Source: Alphaproteobacteria bacterium
Lineage (GTDB): Bacteria; Pseudomonadota; Alphaproteobacteria; Caulobacterales; Maricaulaceae
Direction: 5' to 3'
NCBI GenBank assembly: GCA_016124675.1
Contig: WGNG01000002.1
Span: 124,001-188,000, forward strand
Length of the DNA stretch: 64,000 bases
Shown here: positions 13,551 to 15,194 of the stretch, in pieces
Position numbering within the stretch: the stretch's first letter is position 1
Layout of the letters: every line of letters starts with the position of its first letter
The notes under the pieces: model-generated
What the model saw: the letters and a program-made list of their open reading frames with translations, nothing else
Databases searched by the model: none
What the model was told of the DNA's origin: nothing
Made by a program: the position numbers and the translations under genes

Positions 13551-13657
13551 CGACGCCCGCTCCGCAGGTTGCTCCGGGTTCGGACATTAGAGCGGTTTGA
13601 TCGCGCAGGGCAGGGGGCGCGGGCAGGAGGGTTGCCCGCATGGACGGGAGCATGGAA

Positions 13658-13939
13658 TCACAAGTCGCCGCTCTCTCGTAGTTTTTCTTCGTATCTTTTC
13701 CGGCTTAGCGGGCATTCAATGAGCTGATGGAAATCAGCTTTCGTTAGCTTGCACTGCTTCGCCATCAAAGATATTAGCGCCTCACCCAGGTCCTTCTTGC
13801 CTGTGCCGTGAGAAGTCTTCGTTCTGACCGATGTCTTTGAGCCAGCCTCAGTGTAATAAATAAAAAATGCGTGGTCTCCCTCTTTCCGGGAGAAGCCCTT
13901 TCGCTCTAGTGAAGCTTCCACGTCTCGGCGCTTAAGCAT
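13658..13939 (-). CDS. HicA-like small protein (putative mRNA interferase fold)
   Basis: 93 aa. The first 45 residues resemble the double-stranded-RNA-binding-like HicA fold: MLKRRDVEASLERKGF, then KEGDHAFFIYYT with a His at residue 23, where HicA toxins carry their catalytic His, then a basic KTSVRTKTSHGTGKKDLGEALISLM segment. The C-terminal QCKLTKADFHQLIECPLSRKRYEEKL tail goes beyond a minimal HicA. No HicB follows; instead it overlaps the upstream 366-aa gene by 8 bp and would be co-translated with it. The base composition is far more AT-rich than the flanks, suggesting acquisition by transfer. Toxin activity is inference from the fold only. Confidence 0.6.
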   Translation of the reverse strand: MLKRRDVEASLERKGFSRKEGDHAFFIYYTEAGSKTSVRTKTSHGTGKKDLGEALISLMAKQCKLTKADFHQLIECPLSRKRYEEKLRESGDL

Positions 13940-15011
13940 TATTCACCTTCTGGAATTGCTTACGCAACGTTTCTGCTAACTGTTGGGCTTTGGGAGAGAG
14001 CTCATCATCGCGAGCACATCCATATTCACGCCACAAAAGTTCGATCTCAGCTTCTAGTGCTTCTTCAAGTTCCGAGCGAGTCTCGCTGGCCAGTAAGATG
14101 TCGTGCGGACCCTCTAATTGATAGAGGCCATCCGCCTCATCAAAAATAACGGTGAAATGCCATTCATCCGACAAATTATATTTCTCACCGTCAACAGAAA
14201 ATTCATTTATTTGTATATCGGAAACATCAACCTCCAAAATATCGCTTACGTCAACGATGGATTTGACTTTTCCTTGATCATCGTAGGTAACATTTCCAAA
14301 AACTTGGATTAAGTCCCTGGGGTGGTCGGTCAATATGTTTTCATAATGCTCTGCATAGATAGCTTGAATTTGCCTGCCGCTAGCAAGCTTAAGGCCAAAT
14401 TGCCTATCTTCGAACTTCATTTCTACTAACGTGCCAGCTACGTATCCCGGCACATAGCCATGATCTTTTGAAGGTTGTGCCTCAAGGCTGGCAAAGGCGA
14501 TTCGCGCTTCTGGTCCTCTTACAAACGGCGCACCCGCTACGTCTTCTAGAGAGAGGTTTAGTCCGGAGCGTGCAGGCGGTTGGCTCTCTTTCAAAGCTTT
14601 CAACAAGCCAGCGCGGTAGTTACGGTCAGGTATCAAAGATCTAAATTGATCTCCGTCACCACTGCCAGCGGCTGTTGCAATCTCTTTAAACTTCGTAGCT
14701 ACGGAATGCATTATTGCAGGATCAAATAAGCGTTCTTTGGGGTTGCCGATTTCTGCAGGAATCGTATAGCCGCCTCGCTCAGGCAATTTGCACATGAGTG
14801 CAAATAGGTGCTCGTCCTCATGGCTCACCCGAGTGCGCAGACCCAGCTCGCGTCCATGTTCCATCTTTGCAATCAGGAATATTGCTCGTTGGATATGACT
14901 CAACGCTCGCACCAGTGCCTGAGCAGGAACGGTGTGCTCTTTGGCCGCTGGGCCAGCGAAATGCAGCCTTATAAAGCGAGGATCCAATTCGTCAGCCAAG
15001 TGGTTCCCCAT
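13932..15011 (-). CDS. Unrecognised protein, first gene of the AT-rich islet
   Basis: About 359 aa from the ATG at 15011; a TTG at 15032 would give 366 aa, and neither has a clear ribosome-binding site. I recognise no family. Visible features: no signal peptide or membrane segment; an N-terminal helical stretch (VPAQALVRALSHIQRAIFLIAK); a central region rich in beta strands (VPGYVAGTLVEMKFEDRQFGLKL...RQIQAIYAEHYENIL); two DVSDI/EVDVSDI repeats; and an acidic helical C-terminus (SELEEALEAEIELLWREYG) ending in basic residues. It overlaps the HicA-like gene by 8 bp, so the two probably act together, as partner and effector or as a two-part defence or addiction module. Composition is AT-rich and foreign-looking. 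Confidence 0.6.
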   Translation of the reverse strand: MGNHLADELDPRFIRLHFAGPAAKEHTVPAQALVRALSHIQRAIFLIAKMEHGRELGLRTRVSHEDEHLFALMCKLPERGGYTIPAEIGNPKERLFDPAIMHSVATKFKEIATAAGSGDGDQFRSLIPDRNYRAGLLKALKESQPPARSGLNLSLEDVAGAPFVRGPEARIAFASLEAQPSKDHGYVPGYVAGTLVEMKFEDRQFGLKLASGRQIQAIYAEHYENILTDHPRDLIQVFGNVTYDDQGKVKSIVDVSDILEVDVSDIQINEFSVDGEKYNLSDEWHFTVIFDEADGLYQLEGPHDILLASETRSELEEALEAEIELLWREYGCARDDELSPKAQQLAETLRKQFQKVNNA

Positions 15012-15118
15012 TTCGTGCTGGCATAAGGCCAAGTCAGATTGTGCAAAGCCGGTAAACTGCTGATCAAAATCGACAGCTCCAAAAATCGCAACATGATATT
15101 AGATAATCATTCAAATAA

Positions 15119-15194
<76 letters not shown>

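Follow-up and report, generated by a model that had tools for sequence, protein, structure and literature searches.

Gene layout and composition of the islet

The window, i.e., the whole 64-kb stretch of DNA analysed here, contains an AT-rich islet with two genes, which adjoins the 3' CCA end of a tRNA-Thr (CGT) gene (Table 1). The GC content of the islet is 0.480, versus a mean of 0.678 for the window, and none of 626 islet-sized windows (step of 100 across the 64 kb) was as GC-poor; outside the islet, such windows had a mean GC content of 0.682 (sd 0.022) and a minimum of 0.636. The left edge is placed with an uncertainty of about 35 bp (13599-13655). An earlier sequence-only reading had described an AT-rich two-gene islet at this tRNA end. 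This was confirmed (48% GC versus 68% around it), as was the sharp drop in GC that it reported; its figure of about 30% GC in places did not hold, the lowest 200-bp value within the islet being 0.39.

As that reading had also stated, the two genes run in one direction with a short overlap (ORFs 13658-13939 and 13932-15032). The downstream gene encodes a small protein and the upstream gene a long partner. The partner frame is open up to position 15098 and an alternative start at TTG 15032 would yield 366 aa; the ATG at 15011 is, from the sequence, most likely the start, because the alignment of homologues begins there. No promoter-like site was found ahead of the pair on the minus strand, and a promoter and terminator scan yielded nothing beyond shuffled sequences; therefore, expression of the pair in the genome of the window is not assured.

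Table 1. Positions of the islet, its genes and predicted domains, and of the pairs found on mobile carriers
Feature	Position	Strand	Remarks
AT-rich islet	13635..15118	.	about 1.48 kb; based on GC content and flank comparison with sister species
Putative Class 8 hicA-like toxin gene	13658..13939	-	93 aa; HicA fold with two additional helices at the C terminus
Codon of His23, presumed catalytic His of HicA	13871..13873	-	column conservation
Overlap of partner gene and toxin gene	13932..13939	-	8 bp
Putative Class 8 hicB-like antitoxin gene	13932..15011	-	359 aa from ATG 15011
C-terminal domain, aa 266-352	13956..14216	-	occurs alone upstream of the toxin elsewhere; presumed toxin-neutralising, HicB-like
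Middle OB-fold domain, aa 183-262	14226..14465	-	AlphaFold2 model, fold matches, PADLOC PDC-M32A match
N-terminal domain, aa 1-178	14478..15011	-	AlphaFold2 model; fold of no established kind
tRNA-Thr (CGT)	15119..15194	-	intact; variable-cargo site in the genus
Geminocystis plasmid pair	L067:1-562 + NZ_AP014827.1:2-769		adjoins a tyrosine recombinase gene
Methanocaldococcus fervens tailed virus 1 pair	L113:1489-2782		328 aa + 104 aa

The tRNA-Thr site in related genomes

In two sister species (G395 and G396), the matching left flank is separated from the same tRNA by only 115 and 127 bp, respectively, and the islet stands in place of this spacer. Other genomes carried different material at the site: an AT-rich gene whose product contains HPFVDGNGR and is, in our reading, a Fic protein (G389, locus L056); a 174-aa gene and an HTH fragment between two copies of the tRNA-Thr, identical at 76 of 76 bases (G392, locus L057); and a stretch of lower GC content, about 0.5, with two other genes (G385). 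Since the cargo differs among members of the genus, the 3' flank of the tRNA-Thr is a variable site in this genus.

Of 369 sampled genomes from the phylum, only the window's own was matched by the toxin profile and by the partner profile, and a search with the single toxin sequence against 299 genomes from the phylum likewise matched that genome only. Among 41 genomes comprising the window's own and 40 relatives, the toxin profile matched none of the relatives, so the locus is not one that all relatives share with normal composition. The islet is of foreign origin and was probably acquired horizontally; the foreign composition and the tRNA boundary noted from the sequence were thus upheld, at a locus that varies within the genus.

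No integrase ORF was present within the islet and no second copy of the tRNA was found in the 64-kb window. An att-like copy of the tRNA was likewise absent from the far end of the islet, where the best match was equalled by 206 and 263 of 300 shuffles for the two strands. The ORF list and the repeat search therefore agree with the sequence-only reading, which had seen neither an integrase nor an att duplication, and an integrative element with att sites was rejected, as both of its hallmarks are missing. That reading's mobile two-part unit survives in part: the pair is conserved and its locus foreign and variable, but mobility as a unit is not borne out, given the lack of integrase and att repeat.

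The two proteins and the conservation of the pair

The AlphaFold2 model of the small protein (28 sequences; pLDDT 90.4) exhibited a helix-strand-strand-strand-helix order, followed by two more helices (H4-13 E16-19 E22-29 E35-41 H53-62 H67-75 H80-90). Its best match among solved folds was 1whz (Z 7.3, rmsd 2.4, 65 aligned), which we take to be a HicA, followed by 5yrz_B (Z 5.4) and 6g26_E (Z 4.8), whose entries are titled toxin-antitoxin or HicAB complexes; the remaining matches listed scored 3.5 or less. The Pfam HicA model (PF07927) matched the window protein with an E-value of 7.6e-4 and 20 bits, versus a curated cut-off of 27 bits; at E <= 1 it matched 29 of the family's 30 members, with 2.8e-6 as the best value. 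The HicA histidine, in the region of the second strand, occupied the expected column in 27 of the 30 members and was shifted by one residue in the other three. The HicA-like fold with its key His, as proposed from the sequence, is thus borne out by the model, the fold matches and the conservation of the His column across homologues, and the protein is probably a HicA-type toxin, predicted to cut RNA.

Other searches were negative. Neither window protein had a match above cut-off in Pfam or NCBIfam, nor a match in the PDB by sequence; profile searches of the PDB yielded chance-level matches only (MecI, IF-3). The toxin matched none of the PADLOC models, its profile gave 43 pattern matches on viral contigs, none of which was confirmed, and its model matched no viral structure at E <= 0.001. 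Close copies of the partner were also absent from viral contigs.

The partner was modelled by AlphaFold2 as three domains. Of these, the middle domain adopts an OB fold, which matched PriB/SSB/RPA-type domains with Z-scores up to 9.3 and for which lysyl-tRNA synthetases were among the best Foldseek matches. The C-terminal domain was modelled as strands followed by two helices; the fold list of the whole partner was filled by the OB domain. Comparison of the C-terminal domain by hhalign with 13 HicB proteins of the order (a set including three from the window's own genome) gave probabilities of 0.3-0.4%; the score was matched or exceeded by 8 of 60 column shuffles and was not significant either with or without the archaeal-virus sequence described below. 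Three canonical HicB genes lie elsewhere in the genome of the window (G000: C11, C19, and C22). Despite the non-significant hhalign result, the C-terminal domain is presumed to be HicB-like, because it stands alone beside the toxin at other loci and because Gerdes (2024, mBio, PMC10865869), in the part of the article available, ascribes a HicB fold to the C-terminal domain of Class 8 HicB. As far as this part describes them, the long, three-domain Class 8 HicB proteins fit the partner, which the sequence-only reading had left unrecognised, and its statement that there is no HicB is probably wrong.

To describe the distribution of the pair, the toxin alignment was used to scan one genome per species for 84,980 species. 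This toxin-only scan yielded 28 confirmed loci, assigned by title to Bacteroidota, Pseudomonadota, Planctomycetota, Lentisphaerota, Fibrobacterota, Cyanobacteriota, and Actinomycetota. A member of the partner family was found directly upstream of the toxin at all 28 loci (leave-one-out profiles, E 5e-7 to 1e-145), so the two genes co-occur across genomes and an orphan HicA without antitoxin was rejected. Partner and toxin genes overlapped at 23 loci, lay within 15 bp at four, and were 65 bp apart at one, in a masked record. The partner match extended over most of the protein at 22 of the 28 loci, and full-length relatives mostly measured 352-363 aa. Shorter forms comprised the partner of L085, which lacks part of the N-terminal domain; that of L091, which consists of the OB and C-terminal domains; and those of L077, L081, L087, and L095 (106-159 aa), which are essentially the C-terminal domain only. 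In the masked L073, only profile positions 57-267 were readable, and the toxin of L095 is cut short.

Two further arrangements were observed. At L005/L006 (G339, of alphaproteobacterial class) and at L087, C-domain-only partners and HicA-type toxins form a tandem array. At L089, the partner forms the end of a longer fused frame, the upstream part of which presumably represents a Tn3-type transposase. The main alignment (A3) contained 24 of the 28 partners, two rows from G339, and the window, and omitted L073 (masked), L082, L089 (fused frame), and L095 (broken toxin). The alignment used for structure prediction (A5) was A3 without L094 and the G339 rows, and a further alignment (A6) omitted L067 and the G339 row.

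The pair was also found on mobile carriers (Table 1). On a 10.4-kb plasmid of the cyanobacterium Geminocystis, the toxin was 50.5% identical and the partner spanned the start of the record. In Methanocaldococcus fervens tailed virus 1, the two genes overlap by 8 bp and both proteins are annotated as hypothetical; the larger matched the partner profile along its length (hhalign probability 97%, E 9e-11) and the smaller was 31.9% identical to the toxin of L069 (E 5e-8).

Neighbourhood, proposed role and relation to known systems

A restriction or PADLOC gene lay beside the pair at no fewer than 13 of the 28 loci (L068, L074, L075, L076, L080, L081, L082, L083, L084, L090, L092, L094, and L095). 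This count is a lower bound, since single-ORF scans covered 10 of the 123 neighbouring ORFs, 8 of which matched. Type I restriction models had many matches among these 123 ORFs. DISARM genes were found at two loci from Chromatiaceae, as judged by title, with DrmA downstream of the pair at L075 and DrmMI upstream at L082; LeoA was found near the pair at L081 and a weaker, IetA-like match at L076. As a control that was unmatched in taxon and size, the window's own 55 ORFs matched three PADLOC models, with one ORF each. These matches, to mad2, mad3, and mad8 (at most three ORFs in positions 1-64000, E 2e-12 to 7e-26), probably reflect general domains. The pair thus occurs near known defence genes, including restriction, DISARM and other defence-type genes, in line with the defence or addiction unit suggested from the sequence.

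Matched against the features described by Gerdes, as far as the available part of PMC10865869 gives them, the window pair very probably belongs to Class 8 hicBA and works as a toxin-antitoxin pair; its rarity in the phylum sample (1 of 369 genomes, its own) was counted against a toxin-antitoxin operon. A sensor-gated HicA toxin-antitoxin is the most likely reading. The upstream gene would encode a long antitoxin whose C-terminal domain keeps the HicA-type RNase encoded downstream silent, and the N-terminal and OB parts would detect an infection signal, in the simplest case a viral protein or some nucleic acid, a role to which we give an even chance. The toxin would be released upon this signal, or when antitoxin synthesis stops, and would then cut RNA, halting the cell ahead of virus multiplication by what may be termed abortive infection. 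The role of the pair is probably that of a virus-triggered growth brake.

The copies on a small plasmid and on a virus would also suit a plain addiction module, acting by post-segregational killing, in which the N-terminal and OB parts only regulate expression or stabilise the antitoxin; the partners that lack these parts indicate that they are dispensable for pairing. We regard this alternative as possible but doubtful, as it does not account well for the chromosomal loci beside defence-type genes, for the retention of the N-terminal and OB parts at 22 of 28 loci across several phyla, or for the distant resemblance of these parts to the defence candidate PDC-M32A. It is unlikely that the islet is a decaying passenger, in which the start of the antitoxin gene and the promoter were lost on landing at the tRNA and the pair is silent: the islet has no integrase, no minus-strand promoter-like site was found, and the frame is open upstream of ATG 15011 with no better ATG, but both frames are intact, the antitoxin aligns with its homologues over its full length, the gene overlap is kept, and read-through from the tRNA is possible. 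Quite improbable is an effector pair, in which the large protein would be a nucleic-acid binding subunit of the small nuclease rather than an antitoxin, as its OB fold, the non-significant HicB match and the colinear alignment with PDC-M32A, which has a partner unlike HicA, might suggest, because the C-terminal domain stands alone beside the toxin at 4 of 28 loci and in the G339 tandem array, as expected of an antitoxin.

For the sensor-gated toxin-antitoxin, the comparative set singles out the C-terminal domain as a candidate minimal antitoxin and the N-terminal and OB parts as a candidate sensor. Since one copy lies in a tailed virus of archaea and others lie near DISARM or type I restriction genes, involvement in virus-host conflict is open to direct testing.

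Among known systems, canonical HicAB (Classes 1-4) has the HicA fold and the His in common with the window toxin, but its gene order is opposite, the window partner is four times longer, and the HicB match was not significant. PDC-M32A was the sole PADLOC system listed for the partner (E 6e-8, over the OB part); its N-terminal and OB parts are colinear with those of the partner (hhalign probability 76%, E 2.3e-5, columns 12-316, from 4 sequences), whereas its C-terminal part differs and its small partner is M32B-like rather than HicA-like. Membership in PDC-M32 was therefore rejected, the M32A match being partial and M32B absent. Foldseek matched the partner to a DUF6575-type phage protein (Siphoviridae sp. 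ctoic9; E 5.6e-8, 270 columns) and to Q6NE06 of Leptospira phage LE1 (E 1.9e-9, 305 columns), with TM-scores of only 0.3-0.4 and 11-12% identity. According to the part of PMC9519451 available, one of the 21 defence systems of E. coli selected by experiment contains a DUF6575 domain, and PD-T4-10, which blocks T-even phages, consists of two overlapping genes, antitoxin then toxin. PD-T4-10 resembles the window pair only in the way the latter is presumed to work, and the PADLOC scan gave no match to it.

It is conceivable, and we propose it tentatively, that the N-terminal and OB part serves as a transferable sensor of infection, placed by evolution before different effectors, HicA in Class 8 and another small protein in PDC-M32, with related folds in phage proteins. 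If so, Class 8 hicBA would be a sensor-gated RNase alarm, often placed inside cellular restriction or DISARM clusters and carried by viruses and plasmids against rivals, and the C-domain-only partners would be the same switch without the sensor.

The closest relation is to Class 8 hicBA itself, a class predicted from genomes (Gerdes 2024, mBio, PMC10865869), for which literature searches found no experimental work. On the available part of that article, both have hicB upstream of hicA with overlapping genes; both HicB proteins combine an unknown N-terminal domain, a LysRS/OB-like middle, and a C-terminal domain, with no recognisable DNA-binding domain named; and the Class 8 HicA, of about 95 aa, carries two extra C-terminal helices, as does the window toxin. 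The window HicB is slightly longer (359 aa, or 366 aa from the TTG) than the 331-356 codons given for the class. Novelty is modest, because the class has already been described. Additions to it would be the copies in a virus and on a plasmid, the link with PDC-M32A, and the C-domain-only partners; no mention of any of these was found in the accessible part of PMC10865869. The islet provides a compact natural specimen of this predicted class.
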